Assembly: GCF_009653635.1 (NCBI RefSeq)
Contig: NZ_PPFD01000002.1
Coordinates: forward strand, 496,001-560,000
Length of the DNA: 64,000 nt
DNA from: Endozoicomonas sp. OPT23
GTDB taxonomy: Bacteria; Pseudomonadota; Gammaproteobacteria; Pseudomonadales; Endozoicomonadaceae
Direction of reading: 5' to 3'
In this document: in pieces, positions 2,685-63,018 of the stretch
Numbering within the stretch: the first letter of the stretch is position 1
How the letters are laid out: every line of letters starts with the position of its first letter
Made by a program: the position numbers and the translations under genes
The notes under the pieces: generated by a model
Databases searched by the model: none
Seen by the model: only the letters and a program-made list of their open reading frames with translations
What the model was told of the DNA's origin: nothing

Positions 2685-4772
2685 TTAGATACTGATTCTT
2701 CCGAGAGGTTGAACAGTAATTTCTTCAGTCAGTTCCTGATGTGAAAGCACTGCCAGATCATAGACTTCCAGTTCCAGTAGCTTACGAACATATCGACGTA
2801 TATCCATCGAGGTGATCAGCACCGGTTTATGTTCGAGGTGACCAATCTTACCCACAGTATTTTTTACGGTCTCTACAAAGCGTGCTGACTGGGAAGGATC
2901 GAGAGCCAGGTAGCTACCTGCTGATGTTTGACGAATACCACCTCTTATAGCATCTTCAACATCCTGATCGAGCAGATAAACCGGCAGCATATTCTTGCCG
3001 TTCGAGTATTTATAGCTGATATACCGTTTCAGGGAGGAGCGAACATACTCTGTCAGCTGAACCACTTCTTTTTCTTTGTGCCCCCAAACAACCAGCGCCT
3101 GAAGGATTGCCCGCAGGTTTCTGATGGAGATATCTTCTGACACTAGTCGCTGGAAGATTTCAGTAATCTTGTTAACGGGTAACAGTCGTTGAACTTCCTT
3201 GATCAATTCGCCGAAAGAGCTTTCCATTTTCTCAAGTAAGTAACGGGTTTCCTGAATACCGATAAATTCTTCCGAGTATTTTTTCAGTACATGCGCTAGA
3301 TGGAATGTCAGGATTTTTGGTGCATCCATATAGTTGACGTTGTTTTTCTCCAGCTTCTCTGTGAATTGCTCTTCAGCCCACAAAGTATCGAGACTGGGTA
3401 GAAAATCCTCTTCATGGTCAAAAGGAATTTTTAGCATTTCAAGATGGTCAACGGTCTCTCTGACAAAAACGAAACCGGGGCGGAAATAACCCGATGCTAC
3501 AGGCACTTCCTGCAGCATGATCGAATAGGTGTTGTCCTGCATAGAGTCATTAAAACGCAGGTGAATGCCGGGGAAAGGTACACCTAAATCCATATAAAGA
3601 GCTTTTCTGACTTTCAGTAACTCGTCGTTCAACATCTGTGTATCGAGAGTTTCCTGGATGGAGGTTGGCACATCGATAATCAAAGGCAGTGTCTGAGTGA
3701 ATTCTTCCTGCTGATCCAGTCTGGACTGAGCATCACCGGCAGTTTCTGTGGCGGCAGCCATGGCTGGGATGCCACCTCTGGTTTCAGCTTCTCTCTCTTT
3801 TGATTCTTTTCGAAGCAAGTAGTAGCCACCACCACCGATGCAGCCCGCTAAGGCAAGGAAGATCATTGTTGGAAAGCCGGGAATCAAGGCAAAGCAAAGC
3901 AGCAGGACACCACCCACCAGTAAAGCTTTAGGCTTATCTAATAGCTGATCACCGATTTCATTACCCAGATCTTTCGAGTCTTCGTTAGATACTCGAGTAA
4001 CGATGATACCTGCAGTGATGGATATCAGCAGGGCTGGAATCTGGGCAATCAAACCATCACCCACAGTCAGGATGGCATAAAGTTGAAGCGCTTCACCCGC
4101 GCTCATATCAAGCATGGTGGTACCTATGGCAACACCGGCAGTGATGTTTACAAAGATGATGATCAGTCCAGCGATGGCGTCACCCTTAACGAACTTCATG
4201 GCACCATCCATTGAACCGAACAGTTGGCTCTCTTTCTGGACCAGCTCTCGTCGTCTCTGAGCTTCTTCCATTTCAATAGAGCCGGCACGGAGGTCAGCAT
4301 CGATACTCATCTGCTTACCAGGCATACCGTCGAGAGAGAATCGGGCACTTACCTCAGCTACACGCTCGGAACCTTTGGTGATAACCAGAAACTGCACAAT
4401 GGTGATGATAAGGAAGAGCACGATACCAACAATCAGGTTGCCGCCCACCACGAAGTTACCAAAGGTATAAACAATTTCACCGGCGTCAGCCTGAAGCAGT
4501 ATCAAACGGGTTGTTGTAATGGAGAGTGACAATCGAAACAAAGTGGTCACAAGAAGAACGGCTGGAAAGGATGAAAATTCTAATGGTGACAACAGATATA
4601 TCGAGGTCATCATCAGAATAAATGAGAGGCCCATATTAAGGGCAATCAGAAAATCCACCAGGAAGGTGGGCATCGGCAAAATAATAAGACCAATGATGGC
4701 AACCAGCAAAGCGGCCAGTACCAGATCGTTTCTTTTTCCGAGTTTATTGAGCCCTGTGAGTACCGGATTCAT
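2685..4772 (-). CDS. sctV: T3SS export gate protein SctV (YscV/LcrD/InvA family)
   Basis: This is the major export-apparatus protein of the type III secretion inner membrane complex; it forms a nonameric ring that passes substrates into the SctRST channel. It has 695 residues, normal for the family. Hydrophobic segments fill residues ~17-130 and ~198-320. The family-defining cytoplasmic loop [18 protein letters not shown] is at 144-161, and the soluble C-terminal domain covers ~355-695. The ATG at 4772 gives a compact N-terminus ending just before the first membrane segment. It lies about 55 bp downstream of sctY in an sctX-sctY-sctV run, the order used by Yersinia/Pseudomonas Ysc-type systems. 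The overall similarity is to virulence SctV rather than to flagellar FlhA, based mainly on this neighbourhood. Confidence 0.93.
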
Positions 4773-4828: not shown

Positions 4829-5122
4829 CTATTTTACTGCTGCTTTCTTTCTCTTCTTGAGCAGAGCTCGCCCCTTGATCCATTTGATGGCCCGGGTGTC
4901 CATTCCAGGCTTTGCGTACTGCAGAAAAGTATCGGCGGAGCGTATGGAATCTTCAGGTCGGTCAGCCTGCAGATAGGCGTAACTGAGCATGCGGTGAACA
5001 TCGAGATTAGCTGGCTCCAGTCGACGTACTGCTTCCAGTAGGGCAATGGATTTTCTGGGTTGCAGGTATTCCATATAATAAGAAGCTTGTGACAGTAACC
5101 ATTGCTTGAGAGGTTTGTTCAT
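4829..5122 (-). CDS. sctY: T3SS chaperone SctY (YscY-like)
   Basis: This small (97 aa) basic protein has a TPR-like helical repeat (SIALLEAVRRLEPANLDVHRMLSYAYLQ..., ~residues 23-52). It sits exactly between an sctX-like gene and sctV, as yscY does in the Yersinia virA operon. YscY binds YscX and both are needed for early secretion and for SctV ring function in Ysc-type systems. The family is ~110-115 aa, so this one is slightly short. The C-terminus is Lys/Arg-rich. The call rests on the TPR character plus gene order; sequence identity alone would be weak. Confidence 0.75.
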   Translation of the reverse strand: MNKPLKQWLLSQASYYMEYLQPRKSIALLEAVRRLEPANLDVHRMLSYAYLQADRPEDSIRSADTFLQYAKPGMDTRAIKWIKGRALLKKRKKAAVK

Positions 5123-5139: not shown

Positions 5140-5511
5140 TTAACCGGCCACCAGAACATTTCTGGTAATCATCAAATACTCAAGAAGCTCTTTGGATTCT
5201 TTGAGAACATTCAGCGCTGCCTGAATCTCCGGTCCTTGATCTTTATGCGCCTCAAGCACGTTCAGCGCCATATTCACCATCATGTGATGTTCATCAGGAG
5301 ATAAAGCGGCTGTTTTTTCACTCAGACTGAGTGCGTATTTTCTTTCTCTGTTCTGGAAAGTCCGGCCCATATCAAGAGCCTTCCAAAAATGGGCGGGGAT
5401 ACTTTCACCGGATGGCTTGAAAGAAGACTTATCCTTTGGAAAATCCTTCTCGTCAAAGTCATCTCTGACTCTGGAAATACTTGATAATCCGCTATTAAAG
5501 GAAACATCCAT
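5140..5511 (-). CDS. sctX: T3SS early substrate SctX (YscX-like)
   Basis: At 123 residues this matches the length of Yersinia YscX (122). The C-terminal half resembles YscX in pattern (PEIQAALNVLKESKELLEYLMITRNVL, aligning with the ELQAAAALLK...LLQIILNLL end of YscX from memory). The N-terminus is polar, as expected for a secreted early substrate. YscX partners with YscY and SctV; here the three genes are consecutive with 17- and 56-bp gaps, so one operon is likely. A promoter should lie in the AT-rich interval before 5858. The YscX/YscY pair marks the Ysc family of systems, which makes this locus Ysc-like rather than SPI-1- or SPI-2-like. Confidence 0.72.
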   Translation of the reverse strand: MDVSFNSGLSSISRVRDDFDEKDFPKDKSSFKPSGESIPAHFWKALDMGRTFQNRERKYALSLSEKTAALSPDEHHMMVNMALNVLEAHKDQGPEIQAALNVLKESKELLEYLMITRNVLVAG

Positions 5512-5857
5512 GATCGTGCTCGCTGCGTAATGAATCCTGTATAAGATCGGCGCAGAATAGATAATCCGAAGCGTTCACTATTGTGAATATTTCCCTTCAT
5601 TTACTGTGATGAGAAATATTCGTTTGCTGATGACTGATTTATTTGCAAACCATTAGAGTTACAAGGCATTCTTAGTAGAGTCGGTTTAAAAAGCCGTTAT
5701 TTGTATTTGAAATAAAAAATGTATTTATAATCAGAAAAAGTTTTACTTGCCGTTAACATAGATATTTGAAGATTTATTTATAGTCAGTAGTTATTTGATT
5801 AGTTGTTTTAGAAGTTGTTTGAGAAGTTTTTGAAGTGAGCAGGGAGGCTCTCGTCGA
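5512..5857. promoter_or_regulatory. AT-rich divergent intergenic region between sctX and sctC
   Basis: These 346 bp separate the minus-strand sctXYV operon from plus-strand sctC and should hold both promoters. The stretch 5640-5830 is markedly AT-rich, with runs such as AAATAAAAAATG and repeated TTAGTTGTTTTAGAAG / TTGTTTGAGAAG motifs. Such composition often goes with H-NS-type silencing or an AraC-type activator. I could not identify a specific operator or a clear -35/-10 pair. Confidence 0.4.
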
Positions 5858-8026
5858 ATGGACTCAAGGCAATCTGAATTACTTGGTATCAGGGCGGTCA
5901 TTCTTGCAGCCAGTTTCCTGTTCATTACGTCTGCAGTTCTATTCACGGAATCACTGAACGCTGTTGTTACGCCAGGGCAGGAGGGTGTTCGTCGTCATAT
6001 TGTTCGGCCCGGTGAAACTCTTGGAATCATTGCCCAGAACTACGGCTTTGAAATGAATGAGTTGGCGGAATACAACAAGATCAACAGCCCAAACAATCTT
6101 ATGGCGGGTCAAACCATTTATCTGCCTGACCCTCAACCAGCGCCGTTCGCTCCCAACCAGGCTATGCCTGTTCCAGTGCCAGAACAGATTCTGGATACCA
6201 GTGTTTTTCCCCCGGAAGAAATTAAGCCGGATGAAAAAGAGTACTACCAGCTCCAGCAATGGATGGGCAGTCAGAAAGAAACATCGGGCGTTGATTCGGT
6301 TGATTACAACTATTCCATTAAAGCGCCAGCTCCGGAATCAAAAGCGGGCTTTGATATCCCTCTCGATGTTTCGGAAGAAACGGTTAAGAAAGTGAATGGT
6401 GAGGAAGCAGCTAAGGTTGCTGAAAGTGATACTCCCGGTGACGATACCAAAGCAGACCCTGATCTGGCTGAATTTATTGATGACTCAGCCTCTCCGGCTC
6501 TGGATGTTTTTGGTGACCGACCCTATGCCTACTATGGCAGTGGCGAGGAATTGTCAGAAACACTGCAGAACTTTGCTGCCAGTTACTACCTTCCAGCCGT
6601 TATTGCTGAAGATGTGTTGGGTGAAGTGAATGGCAAGATTGGCCCTTTGACTCCTGTCGATTTCCTTGACCATATGGCCAACATCTATGGGTTCATCTGG
6701 TATTTTGATGGCCACACGCTTTATGTCTACAGCGGTAATGCAGCTCAACAGAAGATTATCAGTCTTGAATACATGTCTACGGAAGAGTTTAAGAAAACTC
6801 TGAAAAAAGTAGGGATCTGGGATGGACGCTTCTTCTGGAAAGAACAGTCAAAGGATGGTCTGGTCTATGTTTCAGGGCCTCCAAGATATATTGAAATGGT
6901 CTCTCAGACTGCTGACTTGCTGGATAAAAAGGAAGGTGTCAGACAGAAGAGTAAGCTGACCATTCGGATGTATCGTCTTAAATATGCCTGGGCAACGGAT
7001 AAACAGTTTAATTTTCGAGGGCAAGAGGTCACCGTTCCAGGAGTAGCAACTCTTCTCAGAAGCATTATTGCGGGTGGCGGTATTGCCAGTGTTAAGAAAA
7101 AAACAATTGATCCATTAACAGTGCAGCCTGCGAAAGGAGTCGTTAAAAAAGGCATTCAGCAGAGACAGTTTCCTGCAGAAGCTGACCCCTTAAATAAGGG
7201 GCCAGAGCTTGAGGGCAATTACATTAATGCAGATCCTCGTCTGAACGCAGTTATTGTCCATGATCTGGAAGCAAAAATGCCTATGTATGAGGGACTCATT
7301 GAATCTCTTGATAAACCGTCTTCTCAGGTTGAGGTCAGTGTTTCCATCATTGACGTTAATACCGATGATATTGAAGCACTGGGCGTCGACTGGAACAATA
7401 CTCGGGGAGCAGCAGGTACAGATCCTGGCAGTTCAGAAGTGAATTTCGATTTAAGCAAGTCTTCACATAAGGACAGCTTTTCAAGCTTTACCACAGTACT
7501 GGGACTTAATGTCGGTAGCTTTAATGCGCGAGTAAATCTGCTTGAGGATGAAGGGCGGGCAAAGGTTGTTTCAAAACCTTCTATTCTGACATTGGATAAT
7601 CTGGAGGCCATTTTCGATAACAGCAGTACATTCTACGTACCGGTAGCCAGTCAGGAAGATGCCGAGCTGTTTCCGGTTACTTCAGGAACAGTGGTTCAGG
7701 TCACACCCCGAATAGTGCGGGAGGATACAGGAAGACGTATTCACATGAATGTGAATATTCAGGATGGCGGTGATACCAAAGATGCGAATCTAACTATTCC
7801 CAGAGTTAATAACAGCTCTATCAGTACTCAGGCCATAGTTAACGAAAATGAAAGCTTGTTGATCGGAGGCTTTTATAAAGAGTCTGAAAGTCAAAAAGCG
7901 ACCAAGGTACCTGTGTTAGGTGATATTCCTGTCTTTGGTAAGCTGTTCAGAGCGGATCGTAAGCAGGTATCCAGTCAGGTTCGATTGTTCCTGATCACCC
8001 CTAGAATTCTTAATAACGGAGCCTGA
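5858..8026 (+). CDS. sctC: T3SS outer-membrane secretin SctC with an N-terminal LysM domain
   Basis: This is the secretin that forms the outer-membrane ring of the injectisome. It has 722 residues. An N-terminal hydrophobic segment at ~11-30 looks like a signal peptide. Residues ~46-90 form a LysM domain (HIVRPGETLGIIAQNYGF...NLMAGQTIYLP), followed by a Pro/acidic linker (~91-220). The N0/N1 secretin domains begin at ~222 (YAYYGSGEELSETLQNFAASYY), and the C-terminal secretin domain (~490-720) includes VPVLGDIPVFGKLFR near the end. A LysM module is not part of well-known SctC proteins such as YscC and suggests direct peptidoglycan anchoring. An AGGGAGG ribosome site lies ~10 nt before the ATG. 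The gene diverges from sctX. Confidence 0.9.
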   Translation: MDSRQSELLGIRAVILAASFLFITSAVLFTESLNAVVTPGQEGVRRHIVRPGETLGIIAQNYGFEMNELAEYNKINSPNNLMAGQTIYLPDPQPAPFAPNQAMPVPVPEQILDTSVFPPEEIKPDEKEYYQLQQWMGSQKETSGVDSVDYNYSIKAPAPESKAGFDIPLDVSEETVKKVNGEEAAKVAESDTPGDDTKADPDLAEFIDDSASPALDVFGDRPYAYYGSGEELSETLQNFAASYYLPAVIAEDVLGEVNGKIGPLTPVDFLDHMANIYGFIWYFDGHTLYVYSGNAAQQKIISLEYMSTEEFKKTLKKVGIWDGRFFWKEQSKDGLVYVSGPPRYIEMVSQTADLLDKKEGVRQKSKLTIRMYRLKYAWATDKQFNFRGQEVTVPGVATLLRSIIAGGGIASVKKKTIDPLTVQPAKGVVKKGIQQRQFPAEADPLNKGPELEGNYINADPRLNAVIVHDLEAKMPMYEGLIESLDKPSSQVEVSVSIIDVNTDDIEALGVDWNNTRGAAGTDPGSSEVNFDLSKSSHKDSFSSFTTVLGLNVGSFNARVNLLEDEGRAKVVSKPSILTLDNLEAIFDNSSTFYVPVASQEDAELFPVTSGTVVQVTPRIVREDTGRRIHMNVNIQDGGDTKDANLTIPRVNNSSISTQAIVNENESLLIGGFYKESESQKATKVPVLGDIPVFGKLFRADRKQVSSQVRLFLITPRILNNGA

Positions 8027-45984: not shown

Positions 45985-46061
45985 GGCTAGGTAGCTCAGT
46001 TGGTTAGAGCACATCACTCATAATGATGGGGTCGGCAGTTCGAATCTGCCCCTAGCTACCA
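45985..46061 (+). tRNA. tRNA-Met, elongator (anticodon CAT), copy 1
   Basis: This 77-nt cloverleaf includes CCA: acceptor GGCTAGG/CCTAGCT with a G-T wobble at the first pair, D-arm GCTCAGTTGGTTAGAGC, anticodon loop CTCATAA, T-loop GTTCGAATC. The G-U first pair and Watson-Crick-like stem argue for elongator rather than initiator Met, which has a mismatched 1-72 pair and a three-GC anticodon stem. Confidence 0.93.
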
Positions 46062-46138
46062 TATTTCAATTACTGTTATTCACTGATTGACAGTAATTTG
46101 AAACGTGTTAACTTCGAAAGCGTCTGAAAAGACATTGC

Positions 46139-46213
46139 TGGGGTGTCGCCAAGCGGTAAGGCATCAGGTTTTGATCCTGACATGCGGGGGTTCGAATCCC
46201 TCCACCCCAGCCA
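46139..46213 (+). tRNA. tRNA-Gln (anticodon TTG), copy 2
   Basis: This is identical over its 75 nt to the tRNA-Gln at 36450-36524. It follows tRNA-Met by 77 bp; a TTGACA at 46087 may be part of a separate promoter, but the -10 is poor. Confidence 0.97.
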
Positions 46214-46246
46214 TTTAGTTATTCTCTTTCTTTTAAAGAAAGCTTC

Positions 46247-46275
46247 TTGACAAAATTGTCCTGAATGCAGAGAAT
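46247..46275 (+). promoter_or_regulatory. tRNA promoter, second unit
   Basis: TTGACA, 17-bp spacer, GAGAAT and a GCGTCCC discriminator, the same layout as the first tRNA promoter. It lies 16 bp before the second tRNA-Met. Confidence 0.7.
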
Positions 46276-46291
46276 AGCGTCCCGATTTGAT

Positions 46292-46368
46292 GGCTAGGTA
46301 GCTCAGTTGGTTAGAGCACATCACTCATAATGATGGGGTCGGCAGTTCGAATCTGCCCCTAGCTACCA
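46292..46368 (+). tRNA. tRNA-Met, elongator (anticodon CAT), copy 2
   Basis: This 77-nt sequence is identical to copy 1 at 45985-46061. It is followed by tRNA-Gln copy 3 after 42 bp, repeating the Met-Gln order of the first unit. Confidence 0.93.
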
Positions 46369-46410
46369 TTCAATATCGGGAATTAACGTTGAGATATTGA
46401 ACGTTAAAAT

Positions 46411-46485
46411 TGGAGTGTCGCCAAGCGGTAAGGCATCAGGTTTTGATCCTGACATGCGGGGGTTCGAATCCCTCCACTCCAGCCA
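46411..46485 (+). tRNA. tRNA-Gln (anticodon TTG), copy 3
   Basis: It is identical to the other two tRNA-Gln copies except for a compensated acceptor-stem change: TGGAGTG with CACTCCA instead of TGGGGTG with CACCCCA. The pair is kept, showing that the copy is functional. Confidence 0.97.
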
Positions 46486-49521: not shown

Positions 49522-52344
49522 GTGTCTAAAAAAACTATGAAACAAAATCTGGCGCTGACTGCGCTGGCTTCTGCTGTTATGGCAGCTTCTTCTGTTGCGC
49601 CTGCTGATTTGATTATTAGTGAGTATGTTGAAGGTACGGGCTATAATAAGGCGATTGAATTATTTAATACTGGCGATGTAGCTGTAGATTTAGCACGCTA
49701 CAAACTGGTGATGTTCGATGAAGGTAATAAGTCAAAGGTTAATGAAGTTTCTTTGACTGGTAGCCTTGAGCCTAATCAGATCTACCTTATTGCTAAGAGC
49801 AACAAAAATAATAAAACACCACTCAAATTAAAAACTGATGGTGGTAAAGCTGACTCTGTAAGTTCTAGTAAGTTTTTTAATTTTAATGGTGACGACCCTG
49901 TAGAGTTGCAGCTGCAAGATGGTACAACTGTTGATGCAGTAGCTGCTAAGAAAGATACCTCTCTATCACGAAAAGTTGGTGTAGCTACGCCATCGGAAGC
50001 ATTTGATGCTGATCAATGGAGTGAGGTTAAAATAACAAAAGACTACACTTACAACCAGTTGGGGTTTAGGCCTGGTGAGCAAGGTGCTGAACCAACTCCA
50101 CCAACTCCACCAACGGCCTGGGACAGTTCTAGCGCCACCATTACCCCAATCAACGAAATTCAAGGTGATAGCTTCCGTAGCCCGGAGGTTCCTGATGGTA
50201 AATACGAATCTGAAGATGAGTATGCTGTTCAGGGTATCGTAACAAAGAAAGTGTCTACTCTTTACAAAGGGTTTTTCCTACAGGAAGAGACAGGGGATGG
50301 TAATGATAAAACCTCTGAAGGTATTTTTATCTATACTGGCGGGGCTGCACTGGCAGGCTTGGATGAAGGTGATCGGGTAGTCGTTAAGGGCAAAGTTAAA
50401 GAAAACTATGGCCAGACCCAAATCAATATTGGTAAAACTGACAAGGGTGCGCTCAAGTTCGACGTAAAAGCAAAAGCTGCCACTCCGGAAATCACCCCTG
50501 TAGAGCTCATTTTCGGTAGTTCGGAAACCTTGAAAAGCCAGCTGGAAAAATACGAAGGTATGCTGGTAAGTACTACGGATTCCAACCTTGTTGTAACGAG
50601 AAACTTTGGTTTTGATTTCGACGGTTTCCGCAATAACATGGTGTTGTCTCTAGAGAAGCCGCTCTACAAACCAACTCAAAAGCATGCTGCACTGAGTGAT
50701 GAAGCTAAAGCATTGGCAGCTAAAAACACCAGTAATCAGCTATACGTTGAAACGGATGAGAAGCCAGCAAACGGTGTTATTCCCTACTTTACAGAATTTG
50801 ATGCTGACAACGATTATATTCTGATCGGGGATAAGGTGGATAAGCTCGAGGGTGTGCTGGGATACAGTCATGACCAATTCCGTCTGGTTGCAAAAACAGG
50901 TGAAAACCTCGAAGCAGGAAACTTTGTTCACAAATTCTCAAAACGGACTTTGGAACCTAAAGCTAAAAAAGGGGAAAATCTTCGTATTGCCAGTTTCAAC
51001 GTTCTTAATTACTTCAATAAGAGTGTTGGTGGCGACGATAATCCGTCAAGTGGCAATCAAAATCGCGGAGCCTCGTCAGAGACTGATTTTGCTAAACAGA
51101 GAACTAAAATCATCAATGCTATGGTGGCCATGGACGCTGATGTTATCGGTTTGATGGAAATTGAAAACAATGGTTTTGGTGAAAAATCTGCTATTCAGGA
51201 TCTCCTGAACGGTTTGAATGCAGAGATGGCGCAAGGGAATGAGTACGCATTTGTTAAGTCTCCAGATGGTGGTGTGGTTGGTTCTGACGCTATCGCAGTT
51301 GGCATGATTTATCGACCCGGCAAGGTTGCGCTAAAAGGAGCGTCTGAAGTAATTGTAATGCCGTCTCAGTCATTCACTTATCAAGGCAAGCTAAAAGGTG
51401 AAACGACTGAAAAGACGCAGAACAAATATCAGAGAAACTCTCTTCTTCAAACGTTTGTGGTAAAGGTTGATGGTAAAGAGCAACCTTACGAATTTACCGC
51501 TGTTGTGAACCATTTCAAATCCAAAGGTTCTGAATGTCATAACGATTATGCAGAGTACAAAGGCTTTGGTAATGCTGCAGATGGTATTCCGATAAAGCTG
51601 AGTAAAGGGTCTTATAAAATTGATAAAACTAATAGAAATGAGAAAGCTACAAGAATTGATCAATACCAAGAAGATCTTCAGGGTAGCTGTAACGAGTTCC
51701 GTGTTTCGGCTGCAGAAACTCTAGGCAAGTACCTGAAAGCAAATAATGATGGTGAGAATGTCCTTATATTGGGCGATCTGAATGCCTATGGGAAAGAAGA
51801 TCCGGTTAGACTACTGACTGATTACCAGTGGAAAGATGGTGATAGAAAACTAACCACAGCACCTTATACCAAGATTGGAACAGCTGATCTGGATGGTGAA
51901 AGTGGTCGTGCACTCACACAAGGCTTTGGTTATGTTAATCTGGCGGATCATGTAGCTGAACGTGAGAATGAAACAGATGTCTTCTCTTACAGTTATGGTG
52001 GTGAGTTAGGTAGCCTTGATCATGTTCTAGCCTCTCAGAAAATGATTGACGAGAATGTTATTGCAGATGTAACGGACTGGCATATCAACTCTGTTGAAAA
52101 CAGCTTGTTTGAATACTCTCGCGAGTATTCTGGCAGCATTGAGAAGTCTGATAATGTCTACAGTTCTTCTGATCATGATCCGGTTCTGATTGATCTGAAT
52201 CTTGGTGGAGAGGTTGTAAGACCGGAACCTGCAGAACCTTCTTCAGGAAGTGCCAACAGCTCCGGTGGCGGTAGCTTCGGTTTCCCAATGCTGGGTCTTG
52301 GTCTTCTGTCTCTGTTCGGTCTGCGTCGTAAGCGCAAGGTGTGA
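49522..52344 (+). CDS. extracellular nuclease, ExeM/NucH type, with GlyGly-CTERM tail
   Basis: This 940-residue exported nuclease has a signal peptide (~8-27, ALTALASAVMAASSVAPA). Then comes a lamin-tail-like domain (~28-170, LIISEYVEGTGYNKAIELFN), an OB-fold domain (~205-340, AVQGIVTKK...GFFLQEE), and an endonuclease/exonuclease/phosphatase domain (~485-900) with ASFNVLNYFN, LMEIENNGFG, VVNHFKSKGSECHN, LILGDLNAYGKEDP, LGSLDHVLAS and SSDHDPVLIDLN. The last ~25 residues, SGGGSFGFPMLGLGLLSLFGLRRKRK, form a GlyGly-CTERM signal: glycine motif, hydrophobic helix, basic tail, processed by rhombosortase after T2SS export. A GTG at 49522 is the ORF start; the ATG at 49537 is an alternative. The gene is notably more AT-rich than its paralogue downstream. 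Confidence 0.92.
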   Translation: MSKKTMKQNLALTALASAVMAASSVAPADLIISEYVEGTGYNKAIELFNTGDVAVDLARYKLVMFDEGNKSKVNEVSLTGSLEPNQIYLIAKSNKNNKTPLKLKTDGGKADSVSSSKFFNFNGDDPVELQLQDGTTVDAVAAKKDTSLSRKVGVATPSEAFDADQWSEVKITKDYTYNQLGFRPGEQGAEPTPPTPPTAWDSSSATITPINEIQGDSFRSPEVPDGKYESEDEYAVQGIVTKKVSTLYKGFFLQEETGDGNDKTSEGIFIYTGGAALAGLDEGDRVVVKGKVKENYGQTQINIGKTDKGALKFDVKAKAATPEITPVELIFGSSETLKSQLEKYEGMLVSTTDSNLVVTRNFGFDFDGFRNNMVLSLEKPLYKPTQKHAALSDEAKALAAKNTSNQLYVETDEKPANGVIPYFTEFDADNDYILIGDKVDKLEGVLGYSHDQFRLVAKTGENLEAGNFVHKFSKRTLEPKAKKGENLRIASFNVLNYFNKSVGGDDNPSSGNQNRGASSETDFAKQRTKIINAMVAMDADVIGLMEIENNGFGEKSAIQDLLNGLNAEMAQGNEYAFVKSPDGGVVGSDAIAVGMIYRPGKVALKGASEVIVMPSQSFTYQGKLKGETTEKTQNKYQRNSLLQTFVVKVDGKEQPYEFTAVVNHFKSKGSECHNDYAEYKGFGNAADGIPIKLSKGSYKIDKTNRNEKATRIDQYQEDLQGSCNEFRVSAAETLGKYLKANNDGENVLILGDLNAYGKEDPVRLLTDYQWKDGDRKLTTAPYTKIGTADLDGESGRALTQGFGYVNLADHVAERENETDVFSYSYGGELGSLDHVLASQKMIDENVIADVTDWHINSVENSLFEYSREYSGSIEKSDNVYSSSDHDPVLIDLNLGGEVVRPEPAEPSSGSANSSGGGSFGFPMLGLGLLSLFGLRRKRKV

Positions 52345-52696: not shown

Positions 52697-55600
52697 ATGA
52701 CTGGTCAAAACCTGAAGCTCAGCTTGATGGCATCGGCTGTTCTGGCAGCATCGTCAACGGCGTCTGCTGATTTAATTATCAGTGAGTACGTTGAAGGCAG
52801 TAGTTATGAAAAAGCCATTGAGCTTTATAATTCTGGCGACGTTTCAATTAATCTGGCTGATTATCAGTTGGTTAAATTCACCAACGGCAGTGAAACCAGT
52901 AAAAGTACTTTGCAGTTAACCGGTTCCCTTCCAGCCGGAGCCACTTATGTTATTGCCCATAATAGAGCCAGTGTCGAGCTGCAAGATAAGGCGCAACTGG
53001 TTAATGGCTCTGTCATCAATTTTAATGGTGATGATCCGGTTGCCTTGCAAAATAAAGCCGGTGATACCCTGGATTTGATGGGGCAGTTTGGCAAGGTTAA
53101 ATTTGGTAAAGACAAGACCTTAGCCCGTAAGGCTGGCAGTACGCCTTCTGCAGAATACGATGCCGCTCAATGGGATCAACTGGCTAAAAATGCTATTGAA
53201 GGCTTGGGCAAGGCTCCGGGTGGAGTCGTTGTACCACCTACGCCTGTTTGGGAGTGTCAGGGTGAGTTGACTGAAGTCTTTGATATTCAGGGCTCCGGCG
53301 ACAGCAGCCCTCTGGTTCCGGAAGGTTCATTTGCCGGTGGCCAGGTAACCGTTCAAGGTATCGTGACCAAGCGAGTAGAATCCCTTTATAAAGGCTTCTT
53401 CCTGCAAGCAGAGCAGGGCGACGGTGATGAAGCAACTTCCGACGGTATCTTTGTCTTTACCGGTGATGCTCCGGCGGCTTCTATAAAAGAAGGCAGCCGT
53501 ATATGTATGCAGGGACAGGTTCGCGAATACTTTGGTCAGACACAGCTCTCACTAACGGAAGCTAACTTCCAGATTCTGGAAGAAAATGCTGCAGATATAG
53601 AAGCAGTACATATGGAATTTGACCCGTCTACTGCGCTGGAGAGCCAGTTGGAGCAGTACGAAGGTATGCTGGTCAGCACGACGGGTTCTGATCTTGTCGT
53701 CACCCGTAACTTTGGCTTTGACTTCGACAGCTTCCGGAACAATATGGTGTTGTCACTGTCCACTCCGCTTTATAAACCAACCCAGAAATTTGCAGCTCTC
53801 AGTCCTGAAGCTAAACAACTGGCCGCTGAAAACGATAAAGGGCAGCTGTTTGTAGAAACCGATGCCAAGCCAGGCGATGGTGAGGTTCCATACTTTGATG
53901 AATTCAATGCTGAAACCGGCTATATCCGGGTAGGCGATAACGTTGAAAACCTTGAAGGTGTTCTGGCTTACAGCTTTGGCGAGTACCGACTGATTCCTGA
54001 AACCGCTGAGCAGCTTGATGCAGCAGACTTTGTTCATGATTTTTCAGATCGTGAAGATCAGCCGGATTTGTCGGCCGACCACGATTTGAAAGTTGCCAGC
54101 TTTAACGTATTGAATTATTTCAACTCCGGTGTCGGTGGTGACTCTAACCCTCTGGGTCAGAACCGTGGTGCAGGCAGTAACCAGGCTGACTTTGAAAAGC
54201 AGCGCACCAAGATTGTCAGCGCAATGATCAGCATTGATGCCGATATTCTTGGTTTGATGGAAATCGAGAATAACGGTTTTGGTGAAAAATCAGCCATTCA
54301 GGATCTGGTCACTCACCTGAACGCCGAGCTTTCGGAAGAAGACCAGTATCGTTTTGTTCGTACTGCTGATAATAGTGTGATTGGTACCGATGCCATCGCT
54401 GTGGGCATTCTTTACCGTCCCGCTAAAGTATCTCTGGCAAAAGGGTCCGAACTGATCGAAATGCCAATCCAGAGAGCAGAGTATCAAGCGCTTGAAAGTG
54501 GTAATGAAGTAACTAAAAGTCTGTTCAAAGGGCAGCGAAATACCCTGGTTCAGGAGTTCACAGTCAAGCTGGATGATGGTCAGACTCGACCGTTGACCGT
54601 TGCTGTTAACCACTTCAAATCCAAGGGTTCTCAGTGCTTCAACGACTATGCCGAGTACGAATGGCCTGTTCCTTTGAGAGGCAGTCGTGTTGATGAGCGA
54701 AATGCCGGGCGTGTTGCTGACTTTGAAGAAGATTTGCAGGGCAGCTGTAATGAGTTCCGCCTGTCTGCGGCAAAAGTGCTTGGCGACTATATGCGTGAAA
54801 ATAAGGCTGGCGATGTTTTGTTGCTGGGTGATTACAACGCTTATGGTAAAGAAGACCCTGTACGTCTGCTGACAGACTACGATGGTACTGGCCGCCAACT
54901 GAAGACGGCGCCGTATACCTTGATTGGCGACGAACCTCTGACAGGCGTTGAGGGTGAAGTTCTGACCGATGGTTATGACTACGTTAACCTTGCTGAGCTG
55001 GTGCACGGTACGGATGCCTTCTCTTACACCTTCTCTGGCGAGCTGGGCAGTCTGGATCACGCTATAGGTTCCGGCTCCATCACAGCCAAGCTGGCGGAAG
55101 TGACTGACTGGCACATCAACTCTCTGGAAAATAACCTGTTTGAGTACAGTGGCAGATTCTCCGGCAGTCTGGAAAAGTCGGATAACAGCTTCAGTTCTTC
55201 TGATCATGATCCGGTTATTCTGACGCTGGACTACAGCCTGTCAAAAGCTCAGCGTGTTGAGCTGGACGATATGGACGACGCCAGGGTTATTCTGGAAATG
55301 ACAGACTATCGCAGTGACAGCTTTGCTCGCTTCGGTATTGCCAGGCCTGAGCTGGCTCGTGCAGATATTGGTCAGGCCGGTTTCCTGAGCGCAGAAGAAG
55401 ATAAGCGTTATCTGGCGGCCTACGAAACGCTTGAGTCATCAGCTTCTGTTGAGTTGAACTCCGTTTCTACCGCTTGGGCACTGGTTCTTGAGCGCAGTTT
55501 TGCAAAGACTGACCTGCTTGAAATGAGCAGCGAAGAGCTACGCCGTGCCAAGCTGGATGTTTCCCGTAGTGATGTGACCCGTACAGCCATCGCGCTGGAG

Positions 55601-55801
55601 CTGGCAGAAGAGTTGAGTCTGGATGACCAGTGGCTGGCAGCCGCTATCCTGGACAACCCAAGAGCGTCTCATCAGAAAGTGTTGATTAATATTCTGGGTA
55701 TGGACTTTGATCGTCGTGCACTGCGTAAGCAGGTCAATAATATAAAGTCTGAAATGCAGCCTGCTGTTCAGCATGAGCGTTGGGATATTATTAATGGCTA
55801 A
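52697..55801 (+). CDS. extracellular nuclease, ExeM/NucH type, with extra C-terminal domain and no GlyGly-CTERM
   Basis: This 1034-residue paralogue of the upstream protein has the same N-terminal domains: signal peptide (~5-25), lamin-tail-like (SADLIISEYVEGSSYEKAIELYN), OB-like (VQGIVTKRVESLYKGFFLQAE) and EEP nuclease (~450-855: ASFNVLNYFN, LMEIENNGFG, VNHFKSKGSQCFN, LLGDYNAYGKEDP, LGSLDHAIGS, SSDHDPVIL). It has no GlyGly-CTERM; instead a ~180-residue helical acidic domain follows (YSLSKAQRVELDDMDD...), unlike anything I recognise. It is expected to be freely secreted while the other passes through rhombosortase. Probably an old tandem duplication; strong identity is confined to the EEP and OB parts. 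Confidence 0.9.
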   Translation: MTGQNLKLSLMASAVLAASSTASADLIISEYVEGSSYEKAIELYNSGDVSINLADYQLVKFTNGSETSKSTLQLTGSLPAGATYVIAHNRASVELQDKAQLVNGSVINFNGDDPVALQNKAGDTLDLMGQFGKVKFGKDKTLARKAGSTPSAEYDAAQWDQLAKNAIEGLGKAPGGVVVPPTPVWECQGELTEVFDIQGSGDSSPLVPEGSFAGGQVTVQGIVTKRVESLYKGFFLQAEQGDGDEATSDGIFVFTGDAPAASIKEGSRICMQGQVREYFGQTQLSLTEANFQILEENAADIEAVHMEFDPSTALESQLEQYEGMLVSTTGSDLVVTRNFGFDFDSFRNNMVLSLSTPLYKPTQKFAALSPEAKQLAAENDKGQLFVETDAKPGDGEVPYFDEFNAETGYIRVGDNVENLEGVLAYSFGEYRLIPETAEQLDAADFVHDFSDREDQPDLSADHDLKVASFNVLNYFNSGVGGDSNPLGQNRGAGSNQADFEKQRTKIVSAMISIDADILGLMEIENNGFGEKSAIQDLVTHLNAELSEEDQYRFVRTADNSVIGTDAIAVGILYRPAKVSLAKGSELIEMPIQRAEYQALESGNEVTKSLFKGQRNTLVQEFTVKLDDGQTRPLTVAVNHFKSKGSQCFNDYAEYEWPVPLRGSRVDERNAGRVADFEEDLQGSCNEFRLSAAKVLGDYMRENKAGDVLLLGDYNAYGKEDPVRLLTDYDGTGRQLKTAPYTLIGDEPLTGVEGEVLTDGYDYVNLAELVHGTDAFSYTFSGELGSLDHAIGSGSITAKLAEVTDWHINSLENNLFEYSGRFSGSLEKSDNSFSSSDHDPVILTLDYSLSKAQRVELDDMDDARVILEMTDYRSDSFARFGIARPELARADIGQAGFLSAEEDKRYLAAYETLESSASVELNSVSTAWALVLERSFAKTDLLEMSSEELRRAKLDVSRSDVTRTAIALELAEELSLDDQWLAAAILDNPRASHQKVLINILGMDFDRRALRKQVNNIKSEMQPAVQHERWDIING

Positions 55802-60130: not shown

Positions 60131-61012
60131 ATGGCTGTATCGCACTCTGAGTTTTTGGGTAAAACAGTATCGGTGATTCAGAGTCAGCAACGAAAGCTGA
60201 CTTTTTTGCTTGAAGCTTTTCTTGTTATTGCCCTGATGTATCTTTTGTCCGGAGTGATCTGGCAATTTCTGAATAAGTCAGATGAGTCACTTGTTCAGTC
60301 TCCACAAGTATTATCGACAGCAGTGGCGTCTGGGCAGAATCAAACGCTGTATCGAGAGTTATCAGACTTCCACTTCTTTGGTAAGACAGTTACCAACAAG
60401 CCTGAGCCGGTTGTTGTAGAAAAAGATATTCGTGAAATCCCCCGTTCAACATTGCCACTGAAGCTGGCGGGTCTACTGGCTCATCCAAATCCTGAGCGTG
60501 CACTGGCTATTATTGAAAGCCGTGGCAAGCAAGGGAGTTATCGCCTGGGAGAAACCATTGAATCCCATCGAGCCGAAATAACTGCAATAAAGCCAGACAG
60601 GGTCATTGTTACTGTTAACGGAAAAGAGCAAGCTTTGATGCTTTATCCCGAGCAGAAAACGTCGACAGTTTTCCAGCCAAAAGCAGTCGCAGAAACACCG
60701 GCCACTAATAAGAGACTCAAAACGCTGGTTGAGAAAGCCAGACAGTCCGGCAATATCACCGATTTGATCAGCATCTCCCCGGTCAGAAAAGAAGGGGAAC
60801 TGATTGGCTACCGATTGAATCCGAGTAAATACCCTGAACTCTTTAAACAGGCTGGATTACAGCGAGGTGATGTTGCCGTTTCTGCCAACGGTAAAGACCT
60901 GACCGATCCGCTGGAATCTCTCGAATTATTAAATAATCTTGCAACACTTCAACGGGTCGACCTGACGGTTGAGCGTGAGGGCATGCTTTATCAGGTTGAA
61001 CTGTCACTATGA
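60131..61012 (+). CDS. gspC: type II secretion protein GspC
   Basis: GspC links the inner-membrane platform of the T2SS to the secretin. The 293-residue protein has a cytoplasmic N-terminus, one membrane helix (~24-48), the homology-region domain (~75-170, FHFFGKT...LKLAGLLAHPNPERALAIIESRGKQGSYRLGETI) and a C-terminal PDZ domain (~200-293, ISPVRKEGELIGYRLNPS...FKQAGLQRGDVAVSANG...). Overlaps gspD by 4 bp, indicating coupled translation. Confidence 0.95.
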   Translation: MAVSHSEFLGKTVSVIQSQQRKLTFLLEAFLVIALMYLLSGVIWQFLNKSDESLVQSPQVLSTAVASGQNQTLYRELSDFHFFGKTVTNKPEPVVVEKDIREIPRSTLPLKLAGLLAHPNPERALAIIESRGKQGSYRLGETIESHRAEITAIKPDRVIVTVNGKEQALMLYPEQKTSTVFQPKAVAETPATNKRLKTLVEKARQSGNITDLISISPVRKEGELIGYRLNPSKYPELFKQAGLQRGDVAVSANGKDLTDPLESLELLNNLATLQRVDLTVEREGMLYQVELSL

Positions 61013-63018
61013 AAAAAGTAATCGGACTCAGTCATTGTCTTAAAGCGGTTTGTCTCTCGGCATCCCTGCTGATGGCGCAGCCAGTATTTTCTACGGATTT
61101 TGCCGCCAGTTTTAATAATGCCGATATTCGTGAGTTTATTAATACGGTCAGTTCCGGACTCGGAAAAACCATTATTATCGACCCTGCCGTTAAAGGTAAG
61201 GTAACGGTCCGCTCTTACGAGCAGTTGAATGAAGAGCAGTATTACCAGCTGTTTCTCGGCGTGCTTGAAGTGAACGGCTTTGCGGTGCTTGAGCAGAAGA
61301 ACAATATTCTCAAGGTTGTCCGTAACAAAGACAGTAAAACCTCAGCATCTCCGCTGAATAATGGTTCCGGCAGTGCTGACGACCGAATCGTTACCTGGGT
61401 TATGCCTATTGATAACGTACCGGTTCGAGATCTGTCACCGATTCTGCGTCAGCTGAATGCTTCCTATGGCAATGTGGTTAACTTCAATCCGGCAAACACT
61501 CTGATTGTTACCGGTCGTGCCGTTAACGTAGAGCGACTGGTTTCCATTGTTGAAGAAATTGATAAAGCGGGTGTTAAATCCGTAGAGGTGGTTTCCCTGA
61601 AGCATACTTCTGCGCAGGAAATGGCGCGTATTCTGACCAGTGTTTATCTGGGTAAAACAGATACGCTGACCTCAGTTGTTGCTAATGATCAAGGTTCTCA
61701 GATTATCATTTCCGGCAACAGCTCCAAGATCAAGCGGATGAAAAAGCTGGCACTGCAACTGGATTCCGAGAGAGCTACTGGTGCTGGAAACAGTCGTGTG
61801 TTCTATCTGAAATACGCCAGAGCCAAGGAAATTAAACCGGTTCTGGACGGTATTGCTGCTTCATTCTCGGGCGCTGCTGCTGGTAAGAAAACACCCGGAA
61901 GTAAAGTCAGTATTGAAGTTCATGAGCAAAATAATGCTCTGGTCATTTCCGCCCAGCCTGAATTAATGAATGAACTGGAAGCCCTGATTGGTAACCTCGA
62001 TATCCGTCGTGCCCAGGTGATGGTGGAAGCCATTATTGCCGAGGTGGGTGAAGGTGACGGTGTAAATCTGTCTTTGCAACTGGCCAGTACACAGGGTTCT
62101 ATTGTTCAGTTCCAGGATGGTTCTAATGTTCCTATAGGGCAAATTATTGCTGGTGTAGCTGATGCTCAGGGTGAAAAGGGCACAACGGTAATAGATGACG
62201 GGAAAACGACAATAAATCCGGATAAACCCGGTGATTACAGTACATTGGCAAATGCTTTAGGGAGACTCTCAGGTTCTGCTTTTGCTATTTCTTCTGGTAA
62301 CTGGGGCGCACTGTTGCAAGCGGCCAGTACTTCTTCAAAAACCAATGTGCTCTCAACACCGAGCCTAATGACACTGGATAACGAGGCTGCTTCTTTTATT
62401 GTCGGTGACGAAGTACCGACTCTGACCGGCTCTACCTCCAGCAGCAATAACGACAATCCTTACCAGACCATCGAACGCAAGCAGGTCGGTGTCAAACTGG
62501 TGGTGACTCCACAGATCAACGAAGGCGATGCGGTACGTCTGGATATTGAACAGGAAGTGTCGAAAGTAAATGGTCGTACGCCTGTTGACGTAACCTTCTC
62601 AACCCGTCAGGTGAAAACCTCAGTTATGGTTCGCAGCGGTGATACGGTGGTTATTGGCGGCTTGATGGATGACGACGTTCAAGAGAGTGTTTCCAAGGTG
62701 CCTCTATTGGGTGATATCCCGATTCTGGGCCACCTGTTTCGTTCGACCAATAGCAAAAAAGTTAAGCGTAACCTGATGGTCTTTATCCGTCCGACCATTA
62801 TTCGTAATGATGACCGCCTGAAGACTGTCAGTGCCAGCAAGTACAGCCTGATTCGAGCTGAACAGTTGTTGCAGGATGAACGCGGTATCAGCCTGATGCC
62901 CGATCAAAATGTACCGGTACTGCCTGAATTGAGTGATGCTGATCGTTTCCTGAAAGAAGTTCAGGGCAGCATTCAGAAGTCAGATGACAGCCGCAAGCAA
63001 CAAGCGGGTGATAGCTGA
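61009..63018 (+). CDS. gspD: type II secretion secretin GspD
   Basis: GspD forms the outer-membrane channel of the T2SS. It has 669 residues. Signal peptide ~1-28, N0 domain ([29 protein letters not shown]), N1-N3 domains, and the secretin core (~330-600) including [57 protein letters not shown] short C-terminal tail follows. Overlaps gspC upstream and gspE downstream by a few bases. Confidence 0.97.

Follow-up and report, generated by a model that had tools for sequence, protein, structure and literature searches.

Wall-binding domains fused to secretins, or working beside them, have been described in several machines. PMC9239104 describes LspD, the type II secretion system (T2SS) secretin of Legionella, as carrying a peptidoglycan-binding type of domain, SPOR-like, ahead of N0. 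PilQ, the type IV pilus secretin, has AMIN domains, also a wall-binding type, in the same place (passages of PMC9239104 and PMC7545093). TsaP, a LysM-like partner of PilQ, provides LysM-type anchoring of a secretin, but as a separate protein that is not fused to it (a passage of PMC9239104). A LysM acquired by a type III component is described for FliO in several Myxococcota genomes (passages of PMC12403147); FliO, however, is a flagellar export-apparatus protein and not a secretin. Fifteen-fold symmetry predominates among secretins (PMC9239104), and in known secretin structures the N terminus ahead of N0 is periplasmic and not exposed at the surface (a passage of PMC9239104). Among injectisome secretins (SctC), the last 18 residues of MxiD are described as binding the pilotin MxiM (PMC10019453). 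For injectisomes it is understood only in part how the secretin contacts the wall and finds its route to the outer membrane, and pilotins vary between systems.

Endozoicomonas sp. OPT23 encodes a SctC in which a LysM domain stands ahead of N0. The features of the locus are given below; the window is the whole stretch of 64,000 nucleotides that was analyzed.

2685..4772, minus strand: sctV, export gate (TIGR01399, 953 bits against a cut-off of 692)
4829..5122, minus strand: sctY, T3SS assembly chaperone (NF052415, 60.8 bits, below the cut-off of 70; a homolog adjoins sctC in 24/27 named loci)
5140..5511, minus strand: sctX, divergent from sctC (TIGR02502, 41.4 bits against 30; PF09474, 43.8 against 25)
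5858..8026, plus strand: sctC, T3SS secretin with N-terminal LysM, 722 aa, ATG start
5858..5962, plus strand: predicted signal peptide, residues 1-35 (about), cleavage after LNA, by eye from the sequence
5996..6127, plus strand: LysM domain, residues 47-90 (PF01476, PDB profile matches, dN/dS)
6128..6523, plus strand: Pro/acidic linker, residues 91-222 (composition, dN/dS, length range)
6302..6313, plus strand: DYNY motif in the linker, residues 149-152 (DYN[YF] in 24/35 orthologs)
6548..6730, plus strand: N0 domain, residues 231-291 (T3S_SPI-1_N0, PF21304, 25.5 bits, slightly below the cut-off of 27)
6965..7327, plus strand: Secretin_N region, residues 370-490 (PF03958 within the region)
7541..8011, plus strand: Secretin domain, residues 562-718 (PF00263)
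8012..8026, plus strand: final four residues and stop of SctC (tail counts; the InvG and MxiD chains continue for 45 residues beyond the matched stretch)

The sctC gene is preceded by a good ribosome site (AGGGAGG at 5841-5847), and its product matches the SctC model TIGR02516 with 484 bits against a cut-off of 238.45, the match starting at residue 223. The Pfam domains follow the order expected of a SctC, N0 then Secretin_N then Secretin, the N0 model being marginally sub-threshold. The best PDB matches are the model SctCs MxiD (E 4e-67) and InvG (1.4e-63), which share this N0-to-secretin core; the MxiD match starts at residue 226 and that of InvG at residue 257, and the LysM and the long linker are unmatched in both. 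The initial annotation had proposed a LysM at about residues 46-90 ahead of N0, separated from it by a Pro/acidic linker of some 130 residues. Both elements stood up. Pfam LysM matches residues 47-90 with an E-value of 1.1e-11 and 44.9 bits, well above the gathering score of 20.9, and the Secretin model matches as well. The linker (residues 93-222, 130 residues) contains 12.3% Pro and 21.5% Asp/Glu, compared with 4.6% and 12.4% in residues 223-722. Unlike LspD and PilQ, the 722-aa SctC has no SPOR or AMIN match at E <= 1 in Pfam.

The LysM region of SctC alone matches solved LysM domains in the PDB. A profile made from 34 of the 35 orthologous LysM segments (L022 was omitted) finds 27 distinct sequences in the PDB at E <= 0.001, the best being 4uz2 (1.7e-25). 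By name these are mostly LysM, chitin-binding or cell-wall proteins, including MltD (1e0g), together with one phage baseplate subunit. The beta-alpha-alpha-beta LysM fold predicted for residues 47-90 rests on homology to solved LysM domains. LysM domains can bind chitin oligomers. Since chitin receptors and chitinases are among the profile matches, the SctC LysM could be imagined to bind a chitin-like glycan of the host or the environment instead of the bacterium's own wall. That reading is very improbable given the periplasmic, unexposed position of the pre-N0 segment in known secretin structures.

The genes around sctC belong to the same kind of machine. In 24 of these 27 named LysM loci sctC has homologs of sctV and sctY beside it, and a homolog of sctX was found in 16. 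Some 11-20 kb upstream of where the window starts, a further cluster encodes a SycD-type chaperone, SctB (a weak match), SctW (below cut-off with the LcrE model, above it with the TyeA model), SycN, SctI (marginally below cut-off), SctJ and SctL. The sctJ gene is 19 kb from sctC, and SctD is encoded on a different contig of the genome. Judged from the parts searched (SctX, Y, V, chaperone, B, W, SycN, I, J, L and D), the predicted system is a scattered, Ysc-like injectisome. LysM-SctC is a lineage-specific variant of SctC and not a new kind of machine.

Several other features of the window were recorded. A 93-aa ORF at 260-541 matches nothing in Pfam or NCBIfam at E <= 1 and is present in 5 of the 27 named loci. 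Two large tandem ORFs (49522-52344 and 52697-55801) each have a Lamin Tail Domain and also match, weakly, an endonuclease/exonuclease model; they are possibly secreted nucleases. About 4 kb from them are T2SS genes, one GspC-like (60131-61012) and one for GspD (61009-63018). At 45985-46485, tRNA-Met and tRNA-Gln genes alternate in tandem, two of each.

We surveyed SctC across 57 genomes of relatives, 36 of them members of the family (Endozoicomonas and its kin). An SctC ortholog is present in 35 of the 36, and no ortholog was found in the remaining family genome, G021 (94% complete). The LysM and N0 models each match all 35 orthologs at E <= 0.01. The concordance of 35 genomes rules out an assembly artifact as the source of the fusion. 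A search of named loci by family alignment, which is biased toward nearer relatives and so may miss rare LysM-SctCs elsewhere, found 74 loci, 27 with a LysM and 47 with none; two of the latter (L091 and L102) are without their N terminus. The 27 were assigned to family members and largely duplicate the 35 genomes. One record, titled Salinisphaera sp. G21_0 (L052), contains an Endozoicomonas-type locus and is probably mislabeled.

Outside the family, none of 73 SctC N-terminal segments, two of them without an N terminus, matched LysM, AMIN or SPOR in Pfam at E <= 0.1, and the N0 model matched in 50 of them. These 73 are what is left of 80 segments after removal of seven that duplicate other loci by coordinates and identity. 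Several outside frames have long upstream extensions (e.g., L103, L107, L113 and L142), which were considered as LysM carriers and have no LysM match; several such extensions are frames that are merely open upstream of the likely start. The initial annotation's statement that classic SctCs have no such module therefore holds for the 73 outside segments, as it does for MxiD and InvG, where the matched stretch is the N0-to-secretin core only. In wider genome draws, with at most four candidates scored per genome, SctC was found at E <= 1e-60 in 2/369 genomes of the class draw, 14/398 of the phylum draw (the OPT23 genome is counted in both) and 34/390 of the order draw, where 18 of the 34 are family members. 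We recognized no LysM-bearing T3SS secretin in the literature covered, i.e., titles, abstract openings and some passages of freely available journal papers. The word LysM does not occur in the main text of PMC3459982.

Three family genomes encode a second SctC that has no LysM: L041 in G019, L043 in G012 and L044 in G017. The LysM is therefore tied to this injectisome and not to the envelope as such.

The LysM-SctCs form one side of a single branch (SH-aLRT 99) in both of two trees. The first, under LG+G4, was built from 95 core sequences: the 35 LysM-SctCs plus 60 of the 68 others (eight short cores or repeats were omitted). The second contains 42 hand-picked sequences, 18 LysM-SctCs and 24 others with nearer outsiders added, under a mixture model. 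Both are quick trees in which long rows were flagged. Gain of the LysM in the family ancestor would be a simpler reading than loss elsewhere, a preference that change counts cannot settle. A single change on the trees would also fit one chance fusion, and the LysM might then be a neutral, functionless leftover. This is largely refuted, and scarcely credible, since the domain is retained in 35/35 orthologs and its dN/dS (residues 45-91; pooled, like all values here, over 12 hand-picked pairs) is 0.086 against 0.223 in the adjoining linker. The core values are 0.043 for N0, 0.053 for N1, 0.069 for the N3 region and 0.049 for the secretin domain. The LysM is under purifying selection near the level of the core, and the linker is looser. 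Four LysM positions are invariant (I58, L69, N73 and P90), and nine others are held in at least 90% of sequences (H47, V49, E53, L55, A59, Y62, G63, G84 and Q85). Linker length ranges from 25 to 163 residues among the 35 orthologs. Despite this otherwise high variability, DYN[YF] persists in 24 of the linkers (L006-L029), and a role as a partner-binding peptide is possible.

The C-terminal end of LysM-SctC differs from that of the model SctCs, too. MxiD and InvG have 45 residues beyond the matched stretch, whereas only 1-4 residues follow position 719 in all 34 complete LysM-SctCs (3 in the OPT23 protein); the 35th ortholog, L038, is cut by a contig end and was excluded from this count. A protein that ends 1-4 residues past the secretin domain cannot accommodate the C-terminal S domain by which the pilotin is bound in Shigella. 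The S domain, usual but not universal in SctC, is absent from LysM-SctC. The absence of a tail in LysM-SctCs is new here and sharpens the contrast with pilotin-using SctCs. Among LysM-less SctCs, tails were measurable in 67 of 68 sequences (not in L118; L133 and L148 are one gene), with a median of 72 residues and a range of 1-219. In 13 of the 67 the tail is 12 residues or shorter, so tail loss alone is not special.

It is close to an even call, leaning slightly against, that the missing tail has nothing to do with the LysM: a pilotin not recognized as such, or another route, would insert the ring, and the LysM would add only stability. The tail can be absent without a LysM, as those 13 sequences demonstrate, and the presence of the LysM and the absence of the tail coincide on a single branch, which gives one event to learn from, so that a causal link cannot be proved. 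Matches to the YscW family (PF09619) also fit an independent pilotin, being present in 28 of the 57 genomes, including 24 of the 36 family members. The OPT23 match, which by eye resembles a lipoprotein, is an ORF of 242 aa lying roughly 370 kb away from sctC. The E. coli control genome matches PF09619 as well, so that a match does not imply a T3SS pilotin. The InvH and MxiM families matched 0/37 genomes each, and the controls were equally silent, for which reason these zeros are not evidence of absence. On this sequence evidence, a pilotin for LysM-SctC may exist. Against an unrelated loss of the tail, the near LysM-less SctCs do have tails: 34-169 residues in all seven of the nearest in the first tree, and 82 residues in three further ones (L158, L159 and L174; f285). 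The second SctCs L041, L043 and L044 have tails of 90-169 residues. The tails of these SctCs are candidate S domains at most.

The extra LysM and the missing tail suggest a different anchoring of the injectisome. Given the domain type and the analogous arrangements in LspD and PilQ, we infer, soundly in our view, that the SctC LysM would grip peptidoglycan directly. Our preferred explanation, which we think probable, is that the injectisome is clamped to peptidoglycan by flexibly tethered LysM arms, and that the N-terminal LysM was gained in the family ancestor. In exported SctC the LysM would be periplasmic, sitting at the end of a flexible tether of 25-163 residues that is rooted in the N0 ring. 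With about 15 subunits, the number usual for solved secretins, a ring would carry about 15 such arms, which would bind the glycan strands of peptidoglycan around the lower channel, and this binding would dock, center and stabilize the basal body. Since the S domain is missing, part of the holding role of the pilotin may have passed to wall binding or to a motif of the linker, DYN[YF] for instance. A stronger version is doubtful, namely that the family swapped C-terminal pilotin capture for N-terminal peptidoglycan capture, the wall itself holding and positioning the ring during assembly in a self-anchoring injectisome. An unrelated loss of the tail would compete with this stronger version, and is compatible with the clamp.

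The LysM domains may instead bind chitin-type glycans, as considered above, or serve in localization. As a module for placement or recruitment, not a mechanical anchor, the LysM would recognize septal, polar or trimmed peptidoglycan, or guide the secretin to openings in the wall. A single LysM on a tether of such variable length is as well suited to recognition as to bearing load. An injectisome locus of the Burkholderia cepacia complex is described as containing genes for a LysM protein and a putative lytic transglycosylase (PMC8565462). However, the family LysM model, which is tuned to the family, finds no further match among the remaining ORFs (80 aa or longer) of the window and of loci L041-L131, and the roughly 15 copies per ring would provide avidity in either case. 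The present evidence does not separate placement from anchoring, and we consider placement alone unlikely. The initial annotation had seen in a secretin that grips peptidoglycan a different way to dock the injectisome. Of that interpretation the architecture and its rarity (35/35 family orthologs, 0/73 outside segments) were borne out; the docking, under the clamp explanation that we prefer, is still a proposal.

The bacteria that share this secretin are mostly marine and animal-associated, and many have corals, sponges, ascidians or mussels as their hosts, in part according to record titles. Within the family, the LysM-fused, tailless clade can be set against the tailed, LysM-less second SctCs that three of its genomes also encode, a natural comparison by which the question of whether wall binding can substitute for a pilotin becomes directly testable.
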